From Prosthecobacter sp. (GTDB lineage: Bacteria > Verrucomicrobiota > Verrucomicrobiia > Verrucomicrobiales > Verrucomicrobiaceae): 64,000 bases of DNA. A program made the position numbers and the translations under genes. Position 1 is the first letter of the stretch, and each line of letters opens with the position of its first letter. The stretch lies in the NCBI GenBank assembly GCA_021733925.1, contig JAIPJY010000015.1, positions 62,001 to 126,000 of the forward strand. The letters run 5' to 3'. This document shows positions 49,362 through 64,000 of the stretch, piece after piece. The notes beneath the pieces were generated by a model. It ran no database searches. It saw nothing but the letters and a program-made list of their open reading frames with translations, and had not been told where the DNA came from.

Positions 49362-49384
49362 AAACATTGCGCTTTGTTTATAGA
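49357..49384 (+). promoter_or_regulatory. Candidate sigma70-type promoter of the nitrate operon
   Basis: TTGAAA (49357-49362) and TATAGA (49379-49384) are spaced by 16 nt, about 42 nt before the first start codon, and the -35 overlaps the LysR inverted repeat. Judged by eye only. Confidence 0.5.
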
Positions 49385-49426
49385 GAAATATTCGCAGATG
49401 GCCCCCCTGATGCTGATAGGGAGGGC

Positions 49427-50542
49427 ATGCCGCAACGCTCCACATTTTCAAAATCCTCTCTCGCTGGTGTCGTCCAGCCGGTCCGCATCGGGTTCATCCC
49501 GCTGGTTGACTGCGCTCCGCTGCTAGTGGCCAGGCACATGGATCTGTTCAGCAAACACGGTGTACGAGTTGAGTTAAATTGTGAGGTCGGATGGGCCACC
49601 ATTCGGGAGAAACTGCTCTATGGGCAGCTGGATGCGGTGCATGCCATCGCCGGCCTTGTGCTGGCGCTGCGTCTTGGACTTAGCACTCCGCCCTGCCGCG
49701 TGGTGGCTCCGTTCGTCTTCAATTTGCATGGAAATGCCATCACCCTCAGCCGTGATCTCTGGAACCGCGGAGTGCGTGATTCCGCCAGCTTGAAAAAACT
49801 CATCCGGAGCGCGTTCAGCCGCCGCTTCACCTTTGGCATGGTGTCGCGTTACTCCTCCCACTATTTTCTCCTGCGACAGTGGCTGCAGTCAGGCGGCATT
49901 GATGTGGAAAAGGACGTGCGCATCGTCGCCCTTCCCCCCACTCAGATGGCGTCCAGCCTGGCAGAAGGTCTCATTGATGGCTACTGCGTCGGTGAACCGT
50001 GGAACTCTTATGCTGTCGAGCGAGGCATTGGCTGGATTGCTGCCACGAGTGAACAGCTTGCCCCCGGACACCCTGAAAAAGTCCTGCTCACGACCGAGCG
50101 CTTTGTCACCACTCATGCGGAAGAATCGCAGGCGATCATCAATGCCTTAAAAGAGGCCTGCGAGTTCTGTGACGTCAGAGAAAATCGCCCGGAAGTCGTC
50201 CGGGTGCTGGCCGACAGCGGCTACTTCACTGGCTACGAGAAAATTCTGCAACGCTCGCTCGTGGGTCCGCTGGATCTCGGCTCCGACAAATCCGTCGCCG
50301 TCGCGGATTTCCACATCTTCCACCGTCGTGAGGCCAACACCCCCACGAACGATCGCGGACGCTGGCTGCTCGAGCAGTTTATCGCCCACGGTCTGCTTGC
50401 CAGCGACCAATACACCGATGCCGCATCCGCGCTGCGTGAGGCGTGGACCGCTGAACTCCATTTTCCCAAAGCTAAAGCCGCCGCCAGCAACGCCCCCAAA
50501 CCTGCCAAATCCAACAAACGCTCATCAAAAACCAAAGTATGA
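49427..50542 (+). CDS. NrtA/NasS-like nitrate-binding protein without signal peptide (371 aa)
   Basis: Periplasmic-binding fold of the CmpA/NrtA family ([39 protein letters not shown]), but start ATG 49427, behind a strong GGGAGGG ribosome site, gives a polar N terminus without leader or helix, so it should stay in the cytoplasm. Leaderless NrtA homologues are known as NasS, the nitrate/nitrite sensor that holds the antiterminator NasT. No ANTAR-type NasT gene is in the window. The C terminus ends in a lysine-rich tail. Its stop overlaps the start of nrtA (ATGA). Confidence 0.85.
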
Positions 50543-51888
50543 AATTCACTCTCACCACCCTCGCGCGGCTAGCGCTTTTAATCACCACACCTGCATTTGC
50601 AGGCACCACGGAACTGCTCGATGTCGAAAAAGACCAGCTCAAGATCGGCTTCATCAAGCTGACGGACTGTGCGCCTCTTGTCATTGCCAAGGAAAAAGGC
50701 TTCTTTGAAGATGAGGGTCTGATCGTCGAAGTGGAAGCCCAGGCAAACTGGAAAGTGCTGCTCGACCGCGTCATTACCGGCGAACTCGACGGCGCTCACA
50801 TGCTGGCTGGACAACCCATCGGCGCCACGGTCGGTTTTGGGATCAAAGCAGAGGTCATCACTCCGATCAGCCTCGATTACAATGGCAATGCCATCACGGT
50901 CTCCAACGCTGTGTGGGAGAAAATGAAGCCTGCCATCCCCAAGGATGCAGACGGCAAGCCCGTGCATCCGATCAAAGCCGACAGCTTCAAACCCATCGTC
51001 ATGGAAGCCAAGGCCACTGGCAAGCCGCTGCAGTTTGGCATGGTGTTCCCTGTCTCCACCCATAACTACGAGCTGCGCTACTGGCTCGCTGCGGGTGGCA
51101 TTAATCCCGGGTTCTATTTCGATCCGAAAAGCGGTGAGGAAAACATCCCCGGGGTTCTCAACGGAGATCTTGTTATCTCTGTGACTCCACCACCCCAGAT
51201 GCCTTCCACTCTCGAAGCTGGTACCATTGTCGGCTACTGTGTGGGCGAGCCCTGGAACCAGCAGGCGGTCTTCAAGAAGATCGGCGTTCCGGTGATCACC
51301 GATCATGAAATCTGGGCTTACAATCCTGAAAAAGTCTTCGGCATCACCAAGGCATTCGCGGAGAAAAATCCAAACACCACGCTGGCGCTGACCAAGGCCA
51401 TCATTCGTGCCTGTGCCTGGCTCGACGCGAGTCCAGAAAACCGCAAAGAAGCGGTGAAAATTCTCAGCAAGCCAAATTATGTCGGTGCGGATGAAGCGGT
51501 CATCGCAAACAGCATGACGGGCACCTTTGAGTATGAACCCGGCGACAAGCGTGCGGCACCCGATTTCAACGTCTTTTTCAAGCACAATGCCTCCTATCCT
51601 TGGGCCAGTGACTGTGTCTGGTATCTCACGCAGATGGTGCGCTGGGGACAGGTGAAGGAGCAGAAGCCAGATGTCTGGTATGCAGAGACGGCCAAGTCTG
51701 TCTATCGCGCCGACATCTACGAGAAGGCGGCCGGCCTGCTGATCAAGGAAGGCTTCTTTACTGACAAGGACTTTCCCCTGGGCAGCGATGGCTACCGCGA
51801 GCCGTCCTCCGAATTCATCGACGGCAAGACCTACAACGGTCACAAGCCCAACGACTATCTCAAGGCCTTCGAGATCGGCCTTAAATAA
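50539..51888 (+). CDS. nrtA: Nitrate ABC transporter substrate-binding protein NrtA (449 aa)
   Basis: Periplasmic nitrate (possibly nitrite) binding protein. Signal peptide [21 protein letters not shown] is followed by [20 protein letters not shown], the family's [39 protein letters not shown] and [18 protein letters not shown]. Length is close to cyanobacterial NrtA. No lipobox Cys is evident, so it is probably soluble in the periplasm rather than lipid-anchored. Translationally coupled to the upstream NasS-like gene and followed by nrtB. Confidence 0.93.
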
Positions 51889-51922: not shown

Positions 51923-53062
51923 ATGAACGCCACCACCGTCAATCCTTCCACCGCAGTTGCTGCGGTGCCCGCTCCGAAGCGTGAACCCCTGCGAATGCTA
52001 GCGATTGCTGCATTGCTGGAAAAGCTTGGTCTCGGCTATTTCAGTCCCTTCGTCCGCATGATTGCCCGTTACGATGTGAAATCGCAGTGGCAGCAAGTGG
52101 TGACAAACACGGTTTTGCCCGGAGTCGTGATCATCCTGTTCATGGGTTTTTGGACGCTGTGTTCACACTCGGTGCATACGGACAGCCAGCGCATCCCGAC
52201 TCCGACGGAAACCTGGAAAGCATGGCAGGGCATGCGTGAATTCGCCCGAAATGAAGCGGTCAAGAAGCAGGAGTTTCTTGCCAGCATGTCCACGATCGCC
52301 GCCAAGTGGGATGCGAAGGCAGCGGAGGCGAAAGCTGCGGGCAATGCAGATGCGGCCACCAAGTTTAGCGACAAGGCAGCCAGCTATCGCAGTAAATACT
52401 ACGCAGGCCCTCCGACATTTGGCACACAGATCATGACCAGCCTGCTCACCGTGGCGATTGGCATCGGCGCGGCCACCTTGATCGCCGTGCCCCTTGGCTT
52501 TCTTTGTGGATTGAGCCCGCGCTTCAATCTGGCGATGAATCCGATCATTCAGATCTTCAAGCCGGTGTCTCCGCTGGCCTGGCTGCCCATCGTTTTTGTG
52601 TTTGTGACGGCGCTCTATCATCCTGCCGGGGATGACAGCATCTCGCGGGCGCTTCTCATCTCCGCAGGCACGGTGACGCTATGCTCATTGTGGCCCACGT
52701 TGATCAACACAGCGGTCGGTGTGGCAGGAGTTGACCGAGACTATCTCAATGTGGCGAAGGTTCTCAAGTTGAACGCCTTTCAGCGCATCTGGAAAATCAT
52801 TCTTCCCGCCGCGTTGCCTCTCATCTTCACCGGCATGCGCCTTTCCATCGGCGTTGGCTGGATGGTGCTGATCGCCGCAGACATGCTGGCGCAGAATCCG
52901 GGCCTCGGCAAATTCGTCTGGGACACTTTCCAGAACGGCTCCACCGAAAGCATGGCGCAGATCATCGTCGCTGTGTTCGCCATTGGTTTCATCGGCTTCG
53001 TCCTAGACCGCATCATGCTGGCCCTGCAGCGCCTCGTCACCTTTGGCGGTCAGACCCTCTAA
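51923..53062 (+). CDS. nrtB: Nitrate ABC transporter permease NrtB (379 aa)
   Basis: Binding-protein-dependent permease: helix 1 (TVLPGVVIILFMGFWTLCSH), then QIFKPVSPLAWLPIVFVFVT and the EAA-type loop VLKLNAFQRIWKIILPAALP, IGVGWMVLIAADMLAQNPGL. Between helices 1 and 2 is an inserted, Ala/Lys-rich extracytoplasmic segment of about 80 residues (AAKWDAKAAEAKAAGNADAA) that makes the protein about 100 residues longer than cyanobacterial NrtB. Lies between nrtA and the fused ATPase. Confidence 0.92.
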   Translation: MNATTVNPSTAVAAVPAPKREPLRMLAIAALLEKLGLGYFSPFVRMIARYDVKSQWQQVVTNTVLPGVVIILFMGFWTLCSHSVHTDSQRIPTPTETWKAWQGMREFARNEAVKKQEFLASMSTIAAKWDAKAAEAKAAGNADAATKFSDKAASYRSKYYAGPPTFGTQIMTSLLTVAIGIGAATLIAVPLGFLCGLSPRFNLAMNPIIQIFKPVSPLAWLPIVFVFVTALYHPAGDDSISRALLISAGTVTLCSLWPTLINTAVGVAGVDRDYLNVAKVLKLNAFQRIWKIILPAALPLIFTGMRLSIGVGWMVLIAADMLAQNPGLGKFVWDTFQNGSTESMAQIIVAVFAIGFIGFVLDRIMLALQRLVTFGGQTL

Positions 53063-53075
53063 CCACACCTGCGTC

Positions 53076-54866
53076 ATGTCCTTGATCGAACTTAACCATG
53101 TCTCCGTCGGTTTTGGCGCGGCAAGCACGCGCACCGAGGTGCTGCGTGACATCAACCTCACGCTGAATGAGGGCGAACTCGTGGCCATCGTTGGCTACTC
53201 AGGCAGCGGCAAATCAACCCTGGTCAATCTCATCGCCGGATTAGTTCACCCGGATAAGGGAGAGGCGTTGTTTGATGGCAAGCCGATCACCGGCCCCGGG
53301 CCGGAGCGTGGACTGGTGTTTCAGACCTACGCATTGCTTCCCTGGCTGAGCGTGAGGGGAAATGTGGCTCTGGCGGTGAACCAGGTCTGCCAAGATGAAT
53401 CGCTGGAGGCGCGCAACAAGCGGATCACCGACGCCGTGGATCAGGTCAAGCTCACGCCTGCGCTGCGCAAGCTTCCCAGTGAGCTTTCAGGAGGCATGCG
53501 CCAGCGTGTTTCTGTGGCCCGTGCTCTCTCGTTTTCGCCCCGGGTGCTGCTGCTCGATGAACCCCTGAGCGCGCTCGATGCCCTCACTCGTTCGGAATTG
53601 CAGGACCAAATCCTGGAACTGAAGCAGCGCACCGGCCAGACCATCCTGCTCATCACCAATGACGTCGATGAAGCTCTGTACATGGCTGATCGTGTCATTC
53701 CTTTGACCATGGGACCCGCGGCCACATTTGGGCCGATGGAGGAAATCCGGCTGCGTCGTCCGCGTGACCGTGCGACGCTGCTCGCGGAGCCAGAAGTGCT
53801 CGCCGCCAGAAAGCGGCTGCTGGACTTCCTCATCGCGCAGAGGGAGGACACTGCGGATAATGTTTCCATCAGCCAGCTTCCAGACGCCGATCCCATCGAC
53901 ATCAGCAAAGCAAGCCCCACATTTACCATGCGCTGGGTCCGTGACCGCGCTGAAGCGGAAACCGGAGTCCCTGCTGTGCCGAAGCACAAGGAGAGCCACA
54001 AGCCGGCGGAAGGTTTCGTCACCATCAGCAAGCTGGGGAAAACCTATCCGACTCCGCGAGGGGCGGCGGTGATTGTGCGTGACTTTGATTTGCACATCAA
54101 ACGTGGTGAACTCGTATCCATCATTGGTCATAGCGGCTGCGGCAAGAGCACCGTCTTGAGCATGGTGGCCGGACTCTCCAGCATCACGGATGGCGGCGTC
54201 ATCATCGACGGTCGTGAAATCGAAGGTGCGGGGCCGGATCGCGGCATGGTGTTTCAGAGCCCGAACCTGCTGCCCTGGATGAGCGCCCTGGAAAACGTCA
54301 TGCTGGGAGTGCGCCAGGTCTTTTACCATCTGAACAAGAAGGAGCAGCACGACATCGCTGCGCATTATCTTGAGACGCTCGGTCTTGGCGGCAGCTTTGA
54401 GAAGAAGCCCGGCGCGTTGTCCCAAGGCATGCGCCAGCGTGTGGGGCTTGCCCGTGCGTTTGCGCTGCAGCCGAAGGTGCTGCTACTGGATGAACCGTTT
54501 GGCATGCTCGACAAGCTCACCAAGCTCGAACTTCAGGATGTGCTGCTCAATCTACGTGAGCGCACCGGCACCACGGCCATCATGGTCACGCATGATGTCG
54601 ATGAAGCCATTTATCTCTCCGATCAGGTGGTGATGATGAGTGACGGCCCTGCCGCCACCGCCGCTGAGATTCTGCACATTTCATTCCCACGCCCGCGTGA
54701 CCGCAAGGTGCTGATCGAAAGCCCCGAATGGCATCACTACCGTGAGCACCTGCTCTCATTCCTCGAAGAACGCGCTCACGTGCGTGGCGTGACCACGCAC
54801 CACAGTCGCGCTGCGGGCACACTGCTCCGCCGCCGCGCATCCCTTTCCCTGCAAGCCGCCGCTTAG
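53076..54866 (+). CDS. Fused two-domain nitrate ABC transporter ATP-binding protein (NrtD-NrtD type, 596 aa)
   Basis: One chain carries both ATPase domains. Domain 1: Walker A GYSGSGKST (40-48), signature LSGGM (137-141), Walker B VLLLDEP (157-163), but the switch His is Asn 195 (LITNDVDEA). Domain 2: Walker A GHSGCGKST (351-359), signature LSQGM (448-452), Walker B VLLLDEP and an intact H506 (MVTHDVDEA). Both share the nitrate/sulfonate/taurine-family GPAAT motif after the H-loop. Cyanobacteria use separate NrtC and NrtD, and NrtC carries an NrtA-like tail that is absent here. Start ATG 53076. Confidence 0.93.
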   Translation: MSLIELNHVSVGFGAASTRTEVLRDINLTLNEGELVAIVGYSGSGKSTLVNLIAGLVHPDKGEALFDGKPITGPGPERGLVFQTYALLPWLSVRGNVALAVNQVCQDESLEARNKRITDAVDQVKLTPALRKLPSELSGGMRQRVSVARALSFSPRVLLLDEPLSALDALTRSELQDQILELKQRTGQTILLITNDVDEALYMADRVIPLTMGPAATFGPMEEIRLRRPRDRATLLAEPEVLAARKRLLDFLIAQREDTADNVSISQLPDADPIDISKASPTFTMRWVRDRAEAETGVPAVPKHKESHKPAEGFVTISKLGKTYPTPRGAAVIVRDFDLHIKRGELVSIIGHSGCGKSTVLSMVAGLSSITDGGVIIDGREIEGAGPDRGMVFQSPNLLPWMSALENVMLGVRQVFYHLNKKEQHDIAAHYLETLGLGGSFEKKPGALSQGMRQRVGLARAFALQPKVLLLDEPFGMLDKLTKLELQDVLLNLRERTGTTAIMVTHDVDEAIYLSDQVVMMSDGPAATAAEILHISFPRPRDRKVLIESPEWHHYREHLLSFLEERAHVRGVTTHHSRAAGTLLRRRASLSLQAAA

Positions 54867-54896: not shown

Positions 54897-56303
54897 ATGA
54901 AAAGGCTTCTCCCGCTTTTGCTTGCGACTTCTTCGCTCGCACTCGCCCAAACCCCCGCTCCCAAAACCACGGCGCCCGCCCCGGTGCCTGTCCCAGGCTT
55001 TACGCTTGCACCACCTCCGCCCGCGTATGCTCCCATGAAGATGGGCAAGTTTACCTTCGATGTGCAGGAAAAGATGCGCTACGAAGTCCGAGACAACAAC
55101 TTTGACTTCAACAGTGCGGTCAACAGTCCGCAGGACGCCGCATGGCTGCTCCAGCGTTTTCGCCTTGGCCTTGGCTATGATATCAACTCATGGATCAAGC
55201 TCTATGTACAGGGCCAGGACGTGCGGGAAATCGGCGGCAGCCGCTCGCGCCAGATTGGTGTAGGCGGGGCCGAGGGGGATGACATTTTCGACATCCTGAA
55301 GGCCTACATCCAGATCGGGAACATTAAGAAAGGGTTCAGTGCGACGCTGGGCCGGCAGTTCCTCTCCTTCGGGGACCAGCGTCTGATCGGGCCGCTGGAG
55401 TGGGCGAACCAGGCGCGCACATTTGATGCGTTCAAGTTCCGCTACACTGCGAGCAAGTGGTCGCTGGATGCCTTCACGGCGAGTCCGGTGACGTTCACCA
55501 ACAACCAGTGGAACAAGTCCGACCTGCTGAGCCAGACGGACCACCGCAATGCCTTCCTGAGCGGTCTGTATCTGAGCACGCTGTTTGTGCCGTTTAACAA
55601 GACCACGGACTTTTATGCGCTGCACTACCGGGACGACGGCACGGGCACCTTCGGCGCGCCGACTGGCTCGACGAGCTTTGTCACACTCGGCACGCTGTGG
55701 AAGGGAGACCCCTTGAAGCTGAACGGCTTTGACTATGAAACGGAGATGGACTTCCAAACCGGCAAGGTGGGAGGACGCTCGCTGACAGCGTATGCGGGTC
55801 ACTGGGGAGCAGGTTACAACTGGCTGAAGTCGCCCTGGAAGCCCCGGTTTGGCATGCAATACAACTATGCCTCTGGTGATGGCAGCCCCAACGATAACAA
55901 AGTGGGTACGTTCCAGAACCTGTTTCCGACGAACCACCTGTTCTATGGCTACATGGACACCACGGCATGGGCGAACGTGCACAACCCACAGGTGAACTTC
56001 AGCTTCACGCCAACGTCGAAGATGAAGGTGATGCTGGACTACCACCTCTACTGGAACGCCAACAATGCCGATTCCTGGTATCGCGCCAACGGCACCGCGA
56101 AGGTGCGGCCGCTCAACGCCGCCTCCAGCTCCGCCAGCAGCTTCCGCGGCCAGGAGTTTGACCTTACCGTGAGCTACAAGATCAACGCGCACGTGGCGAT
56201 GCTGGGCGGCTACAGCTACTTCATGGCCGGGCAGTATCTCAGGGACACCGGCTTTTCGAGCGATGCCCAGTTCGGCTACGTGCAGATGCAGGTCGACTTC
56301 TGA
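54897..56303 (+). CDS. Alginate-export-family outer membrane porin, probable nitrate porin (468 aa)
   Basis: Signal peptide (MKRLLPLLLATSSLALA) and a Pro-rich spacer lead to a beta-barrel of the alginate export family (PF13372-like): AWLLQRFRLGLGYDINSWIK, LQDVREIG-like strand pairs, ATLGRQFLSFGDQRLIGPLE, and strands ending in VQMQVDF with a terminal Phe. Alternating hydrophobic strands run to the C terminus. In this operon it would let nitrate cross the outer membrane. Actual alginate handling is unlikely given the context. Confidence 0.88.
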   Translation: MKRLLPLLLATSSLALAQTPAPKTTAPAPVPVPGFTLAPPPPAYAPMKMGKFTFDVQEKMRYEVRDNNFDFNSAVNSPQDAAWLLQRFRLGLGYDINSWIKLYVQGQDVREIGGSRSRQIGVGGAEGDDIFDILKAYIQIGNIKKGFSATLGRQFLSFGDQRLIGPLEWANQARTFDAFKFRYTASKWSLDAFTASPVTFTNNQWNKSDLLSQTDHRNAFLSGLYLSTLFVPFNKTTDFYALHYRDDGTGTFGAPTGSTSFVTLGTLWKGDPLKLNGFDYETEMDFQTGKVGGRSLTAYAGHWGAGYNWLKSPWKPRFGMQYNYASGDGSPNDNKVGTFQNLFPTNHLFYGYMDTTAWANVHNPQVNFSFTPTSKMKVMLDYHLYWNANNADSWYRANGTAKVRPLNAASSSASSFRGQEFDLTVSYKINAHVAMLGGYSYFMAGQYLRDTGFSSDAQFGYVQMQVDF

Positions 56304-56333: not shown

Positions 56334-57953
56334 ATGAAAATTGTCCCCCTCATTCCTGAAAACGCGCCCTTCAGCGTGGAACAACGAGCCTGGCTCAACG
56401 GCTTTCTAGCCGGAGTTCTCAATCGTGGCGCAGCGCCCAATGGGGCGGCGTCTGCAGAATCGAAGCGGCCTTTGCTCATTGCGTTCGGCAGTCAGAGCGG
56501 CAATGCGGAAAGTTTGGCCAAGCGGCTGGCCAGGGAAGCAACGGGTCGGGGCTTCGCAGCGCGCGCTGCGGGCCTCGACTCGCTGCAACCCGCCGAGCTG
56601 GTCAAAGAAGAAAACGTGCTGCTCATCACCAGCACCTGGGGTGAAGGGGACATGCCTGACAACGCGGTCTCGTTCTGGGACAGCATCAATCAAAACGGCA
56701 GCAGCCCCAGGCTGGACGGCGTGCAATTCAGCGTCCTGGCCTTGGGCGACAAAAACTATGGTGACACGTTTTGTCTGGCCGGCAAGAAACTGGACACACG
56801 CCTCGAAGAGCTGGGCGCCAAGCGAATCGTGGACCGCGTCGATTGCGATGTGGAGTTTGATGACCTGGCGAAAAAGTGGAGCGCGAGCGCCTTCACGGCA
56901 TTGACTGGCAGTACGGCACCTGTGGCATCGACAGATCCGGAAGAAGAGGCCGGCTTTACCAAGAAGAATCCTTTTCCTGCCAAGCTGATCGACAACACGC
57001 CGCTCAACGCCCGTGGCAGCAGCAAGGACACGCGGCATATTGGTTTCTCACTCGCAGGCAGCGGGCTGAACTATGAAGTGGGCGACGCGCTGGGAGTCTT
57101 CGTGCAGAACTGCCCGGAAGTGGTGGACGCGGTAATCGCGGCACATGGCTTTGATCCGCAGGCGGAGGTGGCGCTGCCAGATGGTGGCAGCGCAGCGCTG
57201 CGTGAGGCGCTCATCAAGCACTACGAGGTGCGCAGCCACTTTGGCAAAGCGCCAGAGGCCGGCCTCACGCTCGCCGTTTTCATGGAGAACCTGCGCAAGC
57301 TGCAACCGCGGCTGTATTCGATCGCGTCGAGCAGCAAGGCGCATGCCGATGAAGTGCACCTCTGCATCGCCGCAGTGCGGTACAGCACGGATGGTGTGGT
57401 GCACAAAGGAGTGGCCTCCACTTATCTGGCGGACCGACTTTCACTGGGAGAGACAACGGGCATCTACTTTCATCCGGCGAATCATTTCCGCCTGCCCACG
57501 GATCTCACCAAGCCCGTCATCATGGTCGGGCCGGGAACAGGCATCGCGCCATTTCGTGCGTTTCTGGAAGAACGCCAGGCTACTCAGGCCCCCGGCAAAA
57601 ACTGGCTTTTCTTCGGCGATCAAAAACGCGCGAGTGACTTTCTCTACCACGATCAAATCATTGAGTGGGTGCAGAATGGGCACCTCACACGCCTGGACAC
57701 CGCTTTCAGCCGCGATCAGGAGGAAAAAATCTACGTGCAAACCCGCATGCTTCAGGCCGCCAGCGAACTCTGGCAGTGGCTGGAAGAAGGAGCTCATTTT
57801 TATGTGTGCGGTGACGCCAAACGCATGGCCAAAGATGTCGATGAGGCACTTCACAGCATCATCCAAACCGCCGGAGGCAAATCCGCAGACGAAGCCGCTG
57901 CTTACGTCGCACAAATGAAGAAGGAGAAACGCTATGCCCGCGATGTCTATTGA
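56334..57953 (+). CDS. CysJ-like diflavin reductase (539 aa)
   Basis: NAD(P)H-dependent FAD/FMN electron donor. After an N-terminal helix FSVEQRAWLNGFLAG (18-32) come a flavodoxin domain (AFGSQSGNAESLAKRLA; TSTWGEGDMPDNAV), the FAD domain (RLYSIASSSKA), the NAD(P)H domain (GPGTGIAPFRAFLEERQ) and the invariant end YARDVY as in CysJ. It overlaps the start of nirA by 20 nt. Its placement suggests that it reduces NirA, replacing ferredoxin. A sulfite reductase role is the alternative, but no cysI-like partner other than NirA is present. Confidence 0.92.
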   Translation: MKIVPLIPENAPFSVEQRAWLNGFLAGVLNRGAAPNGAASAESKRPLLIAFGSQSGNAESLAKRLAREATGRGFAARAAGLDSLQPAELVKEENVLLITSTWGEGDMPDNAVSFWDSINQNGSSPRLDGVQFSVLALGDKNYGDTFCLAGKKLDTRLEELGAKRIVDRVDCDVEFDDLAKKWSASAFTALTGSTAPVASTDPEEEAGFTKKNPFPAKLIDNTPLNARGSSKDTRHIGFSLAGSGLNYEVGDALGVFVQNCPEVVDAVIAAHGFDPQAEVALPDGGSAALREALIKHYEVRSHFGKAPEAGLTLAVFMENLRKLQPRLYSIASSSKAHADEVHLCIAAVRYSTDGVVHKGVASTYLADRLSLGETTGIYFHPANHFRLPTDLTKPVIMVGPGTGIAPFRAFLEERQATQAPGKNWLFFGDQKRASDFLYHDQIIEWVQNGHLTRLDTAFSRDQEEKIYVQTRMLQAASELWQWLEEGAHFYVCGDAKRMAKDVDEALHSIIQTAGGKSADEAAAYVAQMKKEKRYARDVY

Positions 57954-59679
57954 ACCAGCCGCAACCGCCACGCCGATGAGCGCCGATTTTACCGGCGAAC
58001 AGAAGCGTTACCTCGAAGGCTTCTTTGCCGGCATTGCTGCTGGTGGCGTTTCCTTCGGCGATCTCGCTCCAGCGGCTTCACCCGCAAGTCCAGCGCTCGA
58101 CGACCTGACCAAGGAGGAGCGCATCAAGCGCGAGCTGCACCCCTTTGATGCAATCGAGCAACTGGTGCTGGATGCACGCTGGAATTCCAAGCCTGAGCCG
58201 GAGTCGGTGTTTCGCTACAAGTGGAACGGCCTCTTCTGGCTCAATCCGGTCAAAGACGGCTACATGTGCCGGTTGCGCATTCCGGGCGGGATCGTGAAGA
58301 GCTATCAGCTCCGCGAACTCGCCGCCATCGCCCGTGAACTCACCACGGGATACATTCAGATCACGACTCGGAACAACTTCCAGATTCGTCTCATCGAGCC
58401 GAAGAACTGTCCTGAAGTTCTGCGCCGCATCCAGGGATGTGGACTGCACTCCAAAGGTGCGGGTGCGGACAACATCCGTAACATCACGATGAACCCATGC
58501 GCTGGCTATGACCCGTATGAAATCATTGATATCCGCCCGCTGGTCAACGAACTCGCCACCCTGATCATCGCCTCCAAGGAGTTCTACGATCTGCCGCGCA
58601 AGTTTAACATCGCCTATGACGGCGGTGGGCTCATCTCCGCGGTGGAGGACACCAACGACATCGGCGCCAGCGCGGTGAAGATCGGCGAAAACAGTGAGGG
58701 CATCGAACCCGGTGTCTATTTCCGCATTGCACTGGGTGGCGTCACCGGACATCAGACCTTTGCCAGTGACTGGGGCGTGCTCGTGAAACCTGAGCAGTTG
58801 AACGATGTCATGGTTGCCCTGCTGCGTGTCTTCATTCAATTCGGTGACCGCACCAACCGCAAGAAGGCTCGCTTCAAGTATGTCGTCGAAGACAAGGGTT
58901 TGGATGGCGTGCTCGTGGAAACCGAGAAACTTCTGAAATTCAAACTGACTCGTCTCGCGCCAGACGCGCCGTGTCAGGCGAAGCGTGAATTTTCCCAGCA
59001 GGGTCATTCACATGTCGGTGCCTTTCCGCAGAAGCAGGAGGGCTTGGTTTACATCGGTGCCAGTGTCCCAGTCGGTCAGATGACCGCCAAGCAGCTCGAT
59101 CGTATCGCCGACCTTGCCGATAGCTACGGTTCGGGGGAGATCCGGCTCACCGTCTGGCAAAACTTCATCATTCCGAACGTCAAGAGCGCCTATGCCGCCA
59201 CGGTGGCGAAGTCGTTGAAGAAGCTCGGATTTCCCAGCGAGCAGTCGAATCTCAAAAGCGGCTTTGTAGCGTGCACCGGCAACAAGTACTGCAAGTTCGC
59301 CGCCAGCGACACCAAGGGGCACGCCATCGCCATGATGGAGTATCTCGACAAGCGCGTGCAGCTTGACCGGCCCGTGAACATTCACTTCACGGGTTGCGCG
59401 CATTCCTGTGCCCAGCACTTCATGGGGGACATCGGACTGCTCGGCACCAAGGTGAAATCCGAGAGTGGAGAAGGCTACCACATCACCGTTGGCGGTGGCT
59501 TCGGTGAGAACCGTAAAATTGGCCGCCAGATCTTCAGCGGTGTGGCCTTTGAATCGCTCGGCTCCACGTTGGAGGCCATGCTCAAAGGCTATCAGGCCCA
59601 GCGCACCGAAGGCGAAACCTTCCATTCCTTCTGCAATCGACACACCGTCGGTCAACTACAGGAGGTGTTCAGCCTCTGA
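57934..59679 (+). CDS. nirA: Assimilatory nitrite reductase NirA (siroheme/4Fe-4S) (581 aa)
   Basis: Six-electron reduction of nitrite to ammonium. Start ATG 57934 has AAGGAG 8 nt upstream. Siroheme-cluster cysteines: C447 and C453 (CTGNKYCKFA), C488 and C492 (GCAHSCAQHF). Two ferredoxin-like nitrite/sulfite reductase half-domains (YIQITTRNNFQIRLIEPKNC; EIRLTVWQNFIIPNVKSAYA) are present. The N terminus shares the motif FTGEQKRYLEGFFAGI with the flavoprotein encoded upstream. The C-terminal end lacks the longer tail of plant-type enzymes. Sulfite reductase is the alternative, but the operon favours nitrite. Confidence 0.92.
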   Translation: MPAMSIEPAATATPMSADFTGEQKRYLEGFFAGIAAGGVSFGDLAPAASPASPALDDLTKEERIKRELHPFDAIEQLVLDARWNSKPEPESVFRYKWNGLFWLNPVKDGYMCRLRIPGGIVKSYQLRELAAIARELTTGYIQITTRNNFQIRLIEPKNCPEVLRRIQGCGLHSKGAGADNIRNITMNPCAGYDPYEIIDIRPLVNELATLIIASKEFYDLPRKFNIAYDGGGLISAVEDTNDIGASAVKIGENSEGIEPGVYFRIALGGVTGHQTFASDWGVLVKPEQLNDVMVALLRVFIQFGDRTNRKKARFKYVVEDKGLDGVLVETEKLLKFKLTRLAPDAPCQAKREFSQQGHSHVGAFPQKQEGLVYIGASVPVGQMTAKQLDRIADLADSYGSGEIRLTVWQNFIIPNVKSAYAATVAKSLKKLGFPSEQSNLKSGFVACTGNKYCKFAASDTKGHAIAMMEYLDKRVQLDRPVNIHFTGCAHSCAQHFMGDIGLLGTKVKSESGEGYHITVGGGFGENRKIGRQIFSGVAFESLGSTLEAMLKGYQAQRTEGETFHSFCNRHTVGQLQEVFSL

Positions 59680-59682
59680 GCC

Positions 59683-61272
59683 ATGATTTGTGACCTGGAG
59701 CGTTCGATTTCAGCAGGCGGTTCCGCTGTCAGCATCATCGACGCTGCGCTCCGTGAGCAGCAGACCCTGCGCACTCCAGTCGCTCTTTTTGCAGACGAAT
59801 ACGATGCCAAATCCGTTCGCGATCGGTTCACACACCTGATTCCGCTCAGCAAACCCAACCTTGGGGAGCAGTACGCCTTTGAGGTCAATCTCGATGCCTG
59901 CACCGGCTGCAAGGCCTGCGTGGCAGCTTGTCATTCCCTGAACGGACTCGATGACGATGAAAGCTGGCGCGACATGGGGCTGCTCGTAGGCACGCGGAAG
60001 CAACCCTATCTGCAAACCGTCACCACCGCCTGTCATCACTGTGCCGATCCCGCCTGTGCGGATGGGTGCCCGGTGCTGGCCTATGACAAAGACCCCGTCA
60101 CTGGCATCGTTCGGCATTTGGATGATCAGTGCATCGGCTGCAGTTACTGCATTTTGAAGTGCCCGTATGAAGTGCCGAAGTTCAATCTGAAGCGTGGCAT
60201 TGTGCGGAAATGCGACATGTGCCAGGGGCGCCTCGCTGAAGGTGAAGCACCAGCCTGTGTACAGTCCTGCCCGAATGAGGCGATCAAAATCAAAGTCGTG
60301 AAGCTGGATGCCGTGCCGGATCGTGGCAGCATTGTCGCGGGAGCTTTTGACTCGAGCTACACACGGCCTACGACGACTTATGTTTCTTCCCAGCCGCCTC
60401 CTTCTGCAGCGAGACCTGCGGATGCAGGACGGCTTGACCTCGATCATGGCCACGATCCGCTCGCCTGGATGCTCGTGCTTACACAAATGAGCGCCGGTGG
60501 TTTCATGGGTTGCGCCGTTGCCATGTGGCTGAATTTGCTCACTATGCAGCAGGCAGCCATCACCAGTGCAGTCGCTCTCGCATTTGGTTTGGTGGGGGTT
60601 GCATTGAGCACGCTGCATCTGGGGCAGCCTTTGAAAGCATGGCGGGCATTCCTCGGCTGGCGCAAATCATGGCTCTCGCGCGAGATCATGGCCTTTGGTG
60701 CCCTGCCGGCCGGTGGTCAGGTAATCTTTGTCACATGGTGGCTGGGAAATATGGAATGGATGCGACTGGCTGTCACGGGCACGGCAGTCGCTGCCGCGGT
60801 CGCCGTGTGGTGCTCCGTGATGGTCTATGTGGACACACGCAGGCCATTTTGGTGCATGACCACTGTGGCCGCAAAATTCCTCGGGACGATGCTGCTTCTG
60901 GGGGTTGGATTGTGCGCCGCCGTTTGGAGCTGGGCCGGCATGAGCATCGCTCTATGGGCGCTGGCAATCGCACTGGTGTGCCGCTGGAGTTTGTCGCTCT
61001 GGGAGATTTCCAGTTACCGGAGTGCCTTGGACGATGAGGACTGTGACTGGCACAAATCGGCACGTGTCTTGCAGAAGCATCTCTCGGTCCGGATCGAAGT
61101 GCGCGGTCTGCTCCTCATTGCCGTCGGATTGGTGATTCCTGTGATGATCGCGGCTGGTGCATCCATGCCGTGGATGCTGAGCCTGTCTCTGCTTATGATG
61201 TTTGGCAGCCAGTTGATCGAACGGCTTTATTTCTTCACCGCCGCCGCAGGCTCAAAAATGCCGGGGAACTGA
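59683..61272 (+). CDS. Fused DmsB-DmsC-like iron-sulfur/membrane anchor subunit (529 aa)
   Basis: Residues 65-225 hold four 4Fe-4S clusters ([46 protein letters not shown] with CVQSCP), as in DmsB. After a short linker, residues 260-525 make about eight membrane helices as in the quinol-oxidising DmsC anchor ([40 protein letters not shown]). An extension of about 65 residues precedes the clusters. Neither part has a leader, so the clusters face the cytoplasm. It would feed quinol electrons to the nitrate reductase encoded 2 nt downstream. Confidence 0.9.
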
Positions 61273-61274
61273 CT

Positions 61275-63482
61275 ATGATGAAACTTCCCGCCATCAAGAT
61301 GCCTGCCATGACTCTGCGTGAATGGGACGGACCGCTGACGGCCGATCTGGTGCGTGAACCCGCGAAGTTTGGTCTGGGGCAGGTGCCATCCCACCTGATG
61401 CCGGATGCAACGACGACAGCGATCTGTGGTTTCTGCTCCACCGGCTGCGGGCTTAAAATCCATCTGAAGGATGGCGCAGCGGTCAATCTCACGCCGGATC
61501 CCGATTATCCAGTCAACCTCGGCACTGCTTGTCCCAAGGGCTGGGAGGCCCTCAGTGTGTTGGACGCCCCGGATCGTGCGAAGATGCCGCTGCTGCATGG
61601 CAAAGAGGTCGATTGGGACACCGCGCTCCGATACTTCTGCGACAAGATGCGCGAGATTCTCGACCAGCATGGTCCCGAGGCTGCAGCATTTCTCAGCACG
61701 GGGCAGATCATGTTTGAGGAGATGGCTTTCCTCGGCGCGCTGGCAAAGTTTGGCATGGGCATGATCCATGGCGATGGAAACACGCGTCAGTGCATGGCCA
61801 CTGCTGTCGCCGCTTATAAGGAGAGCATTGGTTTTGATGCGCCGCCTTTCACGTATGCCGACTTTGAAGAGAGTGATGTGCTCGTTTTCATCGGTGCGAA
61901 TCCGTGCATCGCACATCCCATCATGTGGCAGCGGGTGCTGCGCAACAAGCGCAAGCCGGAGATCATCGTCGTTGATCCACGCACCACGGAAACCGCGATG
62001 GCCGCGACGCAGCATTACGCTATCAAGCCGAAGAGCGATCTCGTGCTGCTCTATGGTCTCGCGCATCTCATCATCCGGGACGGGGGAGTGGACACCGCCT
62101 TTGTGGAAGAGCACGCCAGCGGTTTTGACGAGTTTGTTTTGTTCCTGGCAGAGTTTCACCCGCAGCGTGTGGCGCAGGAGACGGGCATCAGCGTGCATCG
62201 CCTCCTTCATTTTGCGCAGACCATCATCTCTGGCACGCCGCGTGTCTCCTTTTGGTGGACGATGGGCGTCAACCAAAGTCACCAAGCCACCCGCACCGCA
62301 CAGGCCATCATCAATCTGGCTCTGATGACTGGGAACATTGGCAAGCCGGGCACCGGAGCCAATTCCATCACGGGACAGTGCAATGCAATGGGCTCACGCC
62401 TGTTCTCCAACACCACGAATCTGCTGGGCGGGCATGACTTCCGCAATCCACGGCATCGCGAGAAAATCGCCGCCGCCACCGGCATTCCGGTGGAGCGCAT
62501 TCCCGATCAGCCAAGCCTGGCTTATGATCAGATCATTAAAGCCGCTGACGAAGGCAAGGTGAAGGCGATCTGGTTTGTCGCCACCAATCCAAGTCACTCG
62601 TGGATCGACCAGAACGAAGTCAACCGGGTGCTCGACAAGCTCGACTTCCTGGTGGTGCAGGACATGTACTGCACTACCGAAACTGCGAAGCGTGCCCATC
62701 TAGTGCTGCCTGCAGCAGGCTGGGGAGAAAAGGAGGGTTGCTTTATCAACAGCGAACGCCGCATTGGTTACAGCCCCAAGGTGCGCCGTGCGCCGGGCCA
62801 GGCGCTGGCGGATTTTCACATCTTTCGTCTCATCGCCCATTACTGGGGCTGCGATGATCTGTTCCGTGGCTGGAGCAGCCCTGAGGCGGTCTTTCGTGTG
62901 CTGCAGCGCTGCACGGAAGACCAGGCCTGTGACATCACGGGCATCAACGGTTACGAGATGTTGCGCAAATCCGGCGGCGTGCAGTGGCCACTTGCCAGAG
63001 ATGAAAGCGCCAGGTTTGAAGTATCAAGCTGGAAGGAGCGGCGCTTATTCGAAGATGGGAAGTTTTACACTCCTGACCAGCGGGCTAAATTTGTCTTTGA
63101 TGCACCAGAAGCAGCGCCTGAGCAGCGGAGTGACGAGTATCCGCTGGTATTGATCACCGGACGTGGAACGAGTGCGCAATGGCACACGGAGACACGTACT
63201 GGGAAGTCTGCGGTGCTGGCGAAAATGATGCCTGAGGAATTGATGCTGGATTTGCATCCTCAGGACGCGAACACTTTGGGTATTCGAGAGGGAATGAAAG
63301 TGCGCGTCATTTCGAAGCGTGCAGAACTGACCGCCAAAGCGCGGGTCACGAACTGCGTTTCCCCCGGTGAAGTCTTTCTGCCCATGCATGACAGCCGCGT
63401 GAACCAACTCACGCACGCATCCTTTGATCCGCACAGCCGCCAGCCGAGCTACAAGCATTCGGCGGTGCGTGTTTGTGTGTGA
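61275..63482 (+). CDS. nasA: Assimilatory molybdopterin nitrate reductase, NasA-like (735 aa)
   Basis: Cytoplasmic Mo-bisPGD enzyme reducing nitrate to nitrite. 4Fe-4S motif C51-x2-C54-x3-C58-x27-C86 ([19 protein letters not shown]), and the catalytic-region [18 protein letters not shown] with C173 as likely Mo ligand. MoPterin-binding blocks include [14 protein letters not shown] and the C-terminal [20 protein letters not shown]. No Tat leader, no N- or C-terminal [2Fe-2S]/BFD domain, so it is shorter than many NasA enzymes and needs an outside electron donor. Start ATG 61275; ATG 61278 is nearly equivalent. Confidence 0.9.
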
Positions 63483-63499
63483 GTCGTTACTCAATTTTT
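63480..63499 (+). terminator. Weak hairpin terminator at the end of the nitrate operon
   Basis: TGAGT (63480-63484) and ACTCA (63489-63493) form a 5-bp stem followed by ATTTTT. It overlaps the nasA stop codon and the end of the convergent helicase gene; the stem is short. Confidence 0.35.
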
Positions 63500-64000
63500 C
63501 GCACGGTCCGCAGTTTTAGCGCTGGCTTGCCATCTTCACGGGCCTGCACCAGGTCCACGCTGAATTCCACCTGCCAGTCGTTGAGGTCTTCGGGATCAAT
63601 CAGCACCTGGTGGATGATCCATGATGTGTTGTCTTCGCTCGGCTTCACATAGGTGTGGCGGCCGTTGCGGGCTTCGTTGTCAAGGCGGATGCGTTCATGT
63701 TCGGCGTAGTACGGCTCGATGAGAGTCGCCAAGGATTCTGCGGTCCATGAACTGCTGACGGTGCTGACAGCAGCGGCGTAGTTTTCCATGGAGAGCGGAC
63801 GCAGGAAGCGGAAGATTTCGGTGCGAATGAGCGCGGTGAATTCGCGTTTGTTGCGAGTGATGTCGGGCGCTTCCGCCGGTTTTTCCACCTGCTCATCCGG
63901 CTTGAAGTTGGGATCACGCATGCGTTCCCATTCATCCAGCAGGCTGGAGTCCGTGCCGCGCAGCACTCCCGCTATCCACGCCTCCATTTCCTGCACGGGT
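63487..64000 (-). CDS. DUF3516-domain helicase, C-terminal part only (window edge)
   Basis: The frame is open to the window end, so the 5' part lies outside. The visible 170 residues are the DUF3516-like C terminus that follows DEAD/DEAH helicase domains: MEAWIAGVLRGTDSSLLDEW, then ERMRDPNF, LAT- and IEPYYAEHERIR stretches and a closing WQVEFSVDLVQAREDGKPAL. The helicase motifs themselves are not visible. It converges on the nitrate operon and appears unrelated to it. Family call is moderate since only the tail is seen. Confidence 0.75.
   Translation of the reverse strand, partial: PVQEMEAWIAGVLRGTDSSLLDEWERMRDPNFKPDEQVEKPAEAPDITRNKREFTALIRTEIFRFLRPLSMENYAAAVSTVSSSWTAESLATLIEPYYAEHERIRLDNEARNGRHTYVKPSEDNTSWIIHQVLIDPEDLNDWQVEFSVDLVQAREDGKPALKLRTVRKIE

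Follow-up and report, generated by a model that had tools for sequence, protein, structure and literature searches.

The DNA considered here is a stretch of 64,000 nucleotides (the window) that corresponds to contig positions 62001-126000 of a Prosthecobacter sp. (Verrucomicrobiae) assembly, and window numbering is used throughout. Between positions 49367 and 63482, the plus strand carries a run of nitrate-assimilation genes separated by short gaps. At the end of this run lie two genes that are the subject of this analysis, one encoding a fusion of a DmsB-like iron-sulfur protein to a DmsC-like membrane anchor and the other encoding a NasA-like molybdoenzyme. The stop codon of the fusion gene (TGA, 61270-61272) is followed by the letters CT and then by the ATG of the NasA-like gene at 61275, i.e., a gap of 2 nucleotides (nt). 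The features of this pair are as follows:

59683..61272, plus strand: DmsB-DmsC fusion of 529 amino acids, recognised from Fer4_11 and DmsC matches over the Pfam cut-off, a pattern of 16 cysteines and hydropathy.
60616..60684, plus strand: predicted menaquinol site, the HLGQP...SWLSRE stretch with H312, S329 and E334, from alignment to H65, S82 and E87 of Escherichia coli DmsC.
61275..63482, plus strand: NasA-like catalytic subunit of a molybdenum bis-pyranopterin guanine dinucleotide (Mo-bisPGD) nitrate reductase, 735 amino acids, named from Pfam matches, ligand cysteines and active-site signatures.

The Pfam matches of the fusion are Fer4_11 at residues 113-203 (E 1.3e-20) and DmsC (PF04976) at residues 259-518 (E 5.5e-13, 49.4 bits against a cut-off of 22.3), and at E up to 0.001 the genome has no other PF04976 match. 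The chain carries 16 cysteines in four sets at residues 73-196, followed by a linker at about 205-255 and by the DmsC-like membrane domain at about 259-518. Each of them has its counterpart among the sixteen cysteines of E. coli DmsB in all 78 family rows, and with seven loci added later the pattern recurs in 84 of 84 fusions; these cysteines are the predicted ligands of four [4Fe-4S] clusters. Assignment to DmsB by NCBIfam is not reached (TIGR02951, 118.5 bits against a cut-off of 214.1). The family hydropathy profile contains six main segments over threshold; since two of these could each accommodate a pair of helices, we read the membrane domain as having eight. Both open frames and the 2-nt gap are as set out in the preliminary description of this DNA, and the Fer4_11 and DmsC matches agree with the four-cluster iron-sulfur protein fused to a DmsC-like anchor that it had reported immediately beside nasA.

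The predicted quinol site is strongly conserved. H312, S329 and E334 of the fusion, which align with His65, Ser82 and Glu87 of E. coli DmsC, are invariant in all 78 rows, and the position equivalent to Ser62 is a serine in only 60 of them. The site motif is retrieved by pattern search in 83 of 84 fusions, and the exception (locus L148) has HIG for HLG and retains all three residues. In the review PMC8076601, replacement of DmsC His65 is described as abolishing quinol oxidation and Glu87 as important in quinone coordination, while a serine at the Ser82 place is reported for all NrfD-like subunits except ActF, which has no quinone interaction.

The membrane orientation of the fusion can be read from the charges of its loops. 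Lysine and arginine residues average 11.7 on the loops of the N-terminal side against 1.5 on the opposite loops, a bias that has the same direction in 78 of 78 rows and persists in 77 when the loop of the quinol site is omitted. E. coli DmsC, subjected to the same counting, has 2 positive charges on those loops versus 7 on the others. According to the positive-inside rule, this bias would therefore turn the quinol site and the cluster domain towards the cytoplasm, the inverse of E. coli DmsC. Neither protein appears to carry an export leader, in agreement with the preliminary description. A pattern for twin-arginine translocation (Tat) leaders, which matched both positive controls (E. coli DmsA and NapA), is found in none of 84 fusions and in five of 85 NasA open frames, in each of which the arginine pair lies upstream of the likely start methionine as judged by eye.

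The catalytic subunit matches the Pfam families Molybdop_Fe4S4, Molybdopterin and Molydop_binding, and no [2Fe-2S] (BFD) domain is found among its Pfam matches at E up to 0.001, in agreement with the earlier claim that the enzyme has no such domain of its own. It carries one [4Fe-4S] cluster (C51, C54, C58, C86) and a predicted molybdenum ligand, C173, and none of these cysteines varies among the 85 rows. Its active site shows CMAT and a 10-residue signature as in NapA and NasA, where the formate dehydrogenase FdhF has XHGP (X being selenocysteine) and PVRGQNNVQG. In a tree of 31 rows, the 22 Verrucomicrobiota rows other than that of the divergent locus L150 join an enzyme from Cetobacterium with a support of 100/99, and L150 joins this group weakly (82/57) in a tree whose branches are long, the L150 and Cetobacterium rows among them. 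With midpoint rooting, long branches and only 8 references, the window protein falls with the nitrate-type rows and away from FdhF; it is 28-42% identical to eight reference rows, one of them a formate dehydrogenase. The NCBIfam ranking is headed by formate dehydrogenase alpha (463.7 of 666 bits), and this identity was rejected because the match is under its cut-off and the active-site signatures differ. As no NCBIfam nitrate model reaches its cut-off either, we use the name NasA-like, which rests on active-site signatures, tree and gene context. The preliminary description had used the NasA label, which by family models is less secure than claimed.

The association of the two genes extends well beyond this genome. 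In a survey of 286 Verrucomicrobiae genomes (thresholds of 759.8 bits and more for NasA and of E up to 6.4e-50 for the fusion), NasA of this kind is present in 72, and the next among the matches listed reach at most 452 bits, in five genomes. A strong fusion match occurs in 70 of the 72 NasA genomes and, at the match strength used, in none without NasA; weaker matches in other genomes are mostly to cluster domains alone. The fusion is full length (one frame of at least 486 amino acids) in 68 of those 70 genomes. Its frame is 435 amino acids long in genome G171; in G022 it is split by a contig end, with the remaining DmsC part on the NasA-bearing contig; in G187 a contig end beside NasA truncates it; and all that is found of it in G073 is a broken, stop-containing DmsC part. 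At least part of the fusion is found in 72 of 72 NasA genomes.

Gene order was read from 77 loci, some possibly near-duplicates, on 8 named contigs and in 69 class genomes; the eight relatives of the fusion on the named contigs, which come from a close-relative, single-sequence scan, are Verrucomicrobia or Verrucomicrobiaceae metagenome-assembled genomes. In the kind of survey for nasA beside fused DmsBC that the preliminary description had put forward, NasA lies directly downstream of the fusion in 69 of the 77 loci (-31 to +62 nt by aligned starts). It is about 2 kb downstream in two and outside the locus in six, of which five have it elsewhere in the genome and one ends at a contig end. No iron-sulfur, DmsC, CysJ or NirA homologue is found within the 16-18 kb surrounding the five detached NasA genes. 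A chance neighbourhood is rejected on these counts (69 adjacent loci of 77, and part of the fusion in every NasA genome), and the fusion is the usual partner of NasA in the class, not a peculiarity of one genome. Two loci show additional genes. In the one detached case of the five whose other neighbours were looked at (L117:8084-10850), a MOSC-domain protein follows NasA; in another locus (L063:14944-17732), the usual DmsBC-NasA pair is followed by two more frames, a second NasA-like one that is more distant and a cluster protein on its own.

Across 387 genomes of the phylum, a profile search (fusion threshold E up to 1e-60) finds the fusion in 47, five of which lie outside the class, four from one family (L146-L149) and one more divergent (genome G391, locus L150). 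NasA follows the fusion in all five. In four of them, the two frames overlap slightly or are no more than 14 bases apart; in L149, the distance is 337 bases and the fusion frame is shorter (459 amino acids). No Nrt, NirA or CysJ homologue is found in the L146-L150 stretches, so the fusion and NasA behave there as a unit that is independent of NirA. L150 has a NarK-family transporter over cut-off upstream of the pair. In this locus (L150:1073-7770), the NarK-type transporter and a fused PP2C phosphatase/protein kinase precede the divergent DmsBC-NasA pair, and further upstream lie genes that resemble molybdenum cofactor genes by eye. In two further class genomes (L151, L152), NirA and CysJ accompany the pair. 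In a plasmid collection of 72,556 records, none has one place that covers 80% of the fusion, and 336 have some match.

In the window, the remaining genes of the run and the one that follows it are:

49367..50542, plus strand: second NMT1_2 protein (NMT1_2, E 1.2e-72).
50539..51888, plus strand: NrtA-like nitrate-binding protein (NMT1_2, E 1.9e-95).
51923..53062, plus strand: NrtB-like permease (BPD_transp_1; ntrB model 156.5 bits, under its cut-off of 209.05).
53043..54866, plus strand: NrtC/NrtD-like subunit of a nitrate ABC transporter, two ATPases in one chain (TIGR01184 ntrCD, 554.7 bits in two stretches, cut-off 291.8).
54897..56303, plus strand: outer-membrane porin of the Alginate_exp family (PF13372, E 3.1e-64).
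56334..57953, plus strand: CysJ-like NADPH diflavin reductase (PRK06214, 484.8 bits, cut-off 432; Flavodoxin_1, FAD_binding_1, NAD_binding_1).
57934..59679, plus strand: NirA-family sirohaem nitrite reductase (NCBIfam PRK09567, 710.4 bits, cut-off 523).
63487-63999, minus strand: DUF3516 protein by family match, the next gene and not part of the cluster.

The NMT1_2 protein encoded immediately 5' of the NrtA gene has no obvious leader in its listed frame; we guess that it is possibly a cytoplasmic nitrate sensor comparable to NasS. The Alginate_exp gene within the operon, which has counterparts in many of the related loci, possibly encodes a nitrate porin. NirA probably receives its electrons from the CysJ-like diflavin reductase. 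Of the 77 loci, 66 encode a CysJ-like protein (full length or flavodoxin-only), and no homologue is found in the other 11 stretches. In six loci, all from one family of the same taxonomic order (L059, L061, L076, L084, L089 and L090), the CysJ-like gene has shrunk to a frame of 192-201 amino acids; the one of the six that was checked (L084:7548-8132) is a flavodoxin alone by family match. Reduced or missing CysJ-like genes suggest a changed electron donor for NirA. A second sirohaem enzyme elsewhere in the genome is a sulfite reductase (640 versus 457 bits), so the NirA of the operon need not serve sulfur.

The likely quinone can also be deduced from the genome, a 7.3-Mb assembly of 127 contigs that is 93% complete, so that absences in it are not final. 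MenD is over its cut-off with its pieces joined (265.6 versus 244.2 bits; the same search gave a match in 14 of 14 control genomes, over cut-off in 7), and the futalosine-pathway family PF02621 is not found in the genome, which makes menaquinone, formed by the classical route, the likely quinone.

Altogether, these findings lead to a model, which we regard as highly probable, in which the fusion and NasA constitute a membrane-bound quinol:nitrate oxidoreductase that serves the first step of nitrate assimilation. We infer that the two proteins would form a complex in which menaquinol, as the electron donor, would be oxidised at the DmsC-type domain; from there, the four [4Fe-4S] clusters of the N-terminal domain would relay electrons to the single [4Fe-4S] cluster in NasA and on to Mo-bisPGD, where nitrate would be reduced to nitrite in the cytoplasm. 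NirA would in turn reduce nitrite to ammonium, the electrons probably coming from NADPH by way of the CysJ-like diflavin reductase. The cost of the nitrate step to the cell would be two quinol electrons, not NADPH or ferredoxin, and because the quinol and nitrate sites would both be on the cytoplasmic side, the step should be electroneutral. The quinol-driven, cytoplasm-facing nitrate reductase within an assimilation operon that the preliminary description had put forward, its mechanism being inferred, is favoured by the co-occurrence of the two genes even where they are unlinked, the invariant quinol-site residues, the inverted loop charges and a menaquinone gene.

Several points weigh against this model. 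The direction of electron flow is not readable from sequence, and a soluble protein, for example the CysJ-like one, could also donate electrons to the cluster domain. No NCBIfam cut-off for nitrate reductases is reached by the window NasA (449.9 of 1000 and 388 of 1100 bits for the two assimilatory models), and the charge count depends on helix boundaries that were drawn manually on the hydropathy profile. Where NasA is detached (five genomes), the fusion has stayed near NirA, which it directly adjoins in four, and this lends some weight to the NirA alternative considered below. As to the surveys, divergent fusions of the class that fall below the match strength used may be missed, so that the absence of fusions without NasA concerns strong matches, and the whole-genome survey covered Verrucomicrobiota, many of the genomes being fragmented; beyond this phylum, coverage came from the plasmid collection and from the scan of genome contigs for close relatives.

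Among the alternatives, the one that survives best, although we hold it to be unlikely, is that the complex is mainly respiratory or acts as an overflow valve for excess quinol, the supply of nitrite for assimilation being secondary. The quinol-linked nitrate reduction of NarGHI is respiratory, and no NarG match is found in this genome; the pair, however, sits with a nitrate importer and NirA, and with both sites on one side of the membrane, as the loop charges lead us to expect, no charge would be separated. We give somewhat less credence to the proposal that a soluble donor (NADPH via the CysJ-like reductase, or ferredoxin) supplies the cluster domain, the DmsC part serving only as a membrane tether or as a regulator that responds to the quinone level. 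The frequency of CysJ-like proteins in these loci speaks for it, as does the related Cetobacterium NasA, which is adjoined by a soluble iron-sulfur protein and an NADH-type flavoprotein. However, the residues for quinol binding and oxidation in DmsC are invariant, which would not be required of a mere tether, and CysJ homologues are missing from the 11 stretches noted above as well as from L146-L150. An equally slim chance attaches to a third proposal, in which the fusion would pass quinol electrons to NirA for nitrite reduction, in the manner of NrfCD and NrfA. NirA is directly upstream of the fusion in 41 of 77 loci, four of the five with detached NasA included, and no CysJ homologue is found in the five detached-NasA loci. 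Yet the adjacency of NasA is far more constant, NirA is absent from five of the 77 loci (two of which, L081 and L106, are at contig ends) as well as from L146-L150, it mostly shares its locus with a CysJ-like reductase, and quinol is a weak donor for a sirohaem enzyme. An exported DMSO reductase was rejected outright, given the lack of leaders and the inverted charges.

Set against known systems, the proposed quinol:nitrate oxidoreductase recombines familiar parts. With NasA, NasC and NarB it shares a cytoplasmic Mo-bisPGD enzyme that lacks a leader and has a single N-terminal [4Fe-4S] cluster, a cysteine ligand and nitrate-type signatures, as well as gene neighbours for nitrate transport and nitrite reduction; the known partners of those enzymes are ferredoxin, flavodoxin or NADH flavoproteins, whereas here the partner would be a membrane fusion. 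With DmsABC of E. coli it shares the four-cluster DmsB and the DmsC anchor with its quinol site of H65, S82 and E87, but B and C form one chain, the catalytic subunit is of the NasA type, there is no Tat leader and the loop charges are inverse. NarGHI is likewise a membrane quinol:nitrate oxidoreductase with a cytoplasmic active site, a role that is predicted from sequence for the present pair; it differs in its haem b anchor, NarI, and in its quinol site at the outer side, which makes it electrogenic. SoeABC is described in PMC8076601 as cytoplasm-facing, with a proposed inverted NrfD/DmsC-like anchor and a quinone site at the N-side. The cytoplasmic orientation of an NrfD/DmsC-like complex would thus be common to both, being suggested here by the loop charges of all 78 rows. 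SoeABC oxidises sulfite and reduces quinone, whereas the reverse direction, with nitrate as substrate, is expected here, and B and C are fused. In this comparison, which is by description, the window catalytic subunit has nitrate-type signatures and matches of the NasA, NapA and formate dehydrogenase types.

The best NasA match in the plasmid collection is a MopB enzyme of Cetobacterium somerae (41.7% identical), adjoined by a DmsB-like cluster protein. Its other neighbour, in contrast with the present loci, is a flavoprotein similar to NirB and PadH (below cut-offs), and no membrane anchor of the DmsC-like kind is found among its annotated neighbours. On this 664-kb plasmid (L109:5980-9738), the molybdoenzyme is accompanied by a DmsB-like cluster protein of 135 amino acids and by an FAD reductase that resembles NirB and PadH. 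In the open literature, with most subscription papers outside its scope, no description of a DmsC-type partner for NasA was found, and the main text of an enzyme-superfamily survey (PMC10100899) is without mention of DmsC, NrfD or Verrucomicrobia.

The electron source is one of the usual criteria for telling assimilatory from respiratory nitrate reduction. We suggest, tentatively and with less than even confidence, that a widespread quinol:nitrate oxidoreductase of Verrucomicrobiota, with both of its sites cytoplasmic, joins a respiratory supply of electrons to assimilation, and that NasA-type enzymes have gained DmsBC anchors more than once. Repeated gain is considered because the main group is nearer to the Cetobacterium enzyme, with its soluble neighbours, than to the DmsBC-partnered L150, whose branch support is weak. 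If the model holds, many members of an environmental phylum would fund the first step of nitrate assimilation by quinol and not by NADPH or ferredoxin. The energy cost of growth on nitrate would be altered and coupled to the state of the respiratory chain, and nasA counts in metagenomes would be no proof of a soluble donor. The fusion would also provide, beside SoeABC, a further inward-facing DmsC-like anchor that works in the opposite redox direction.

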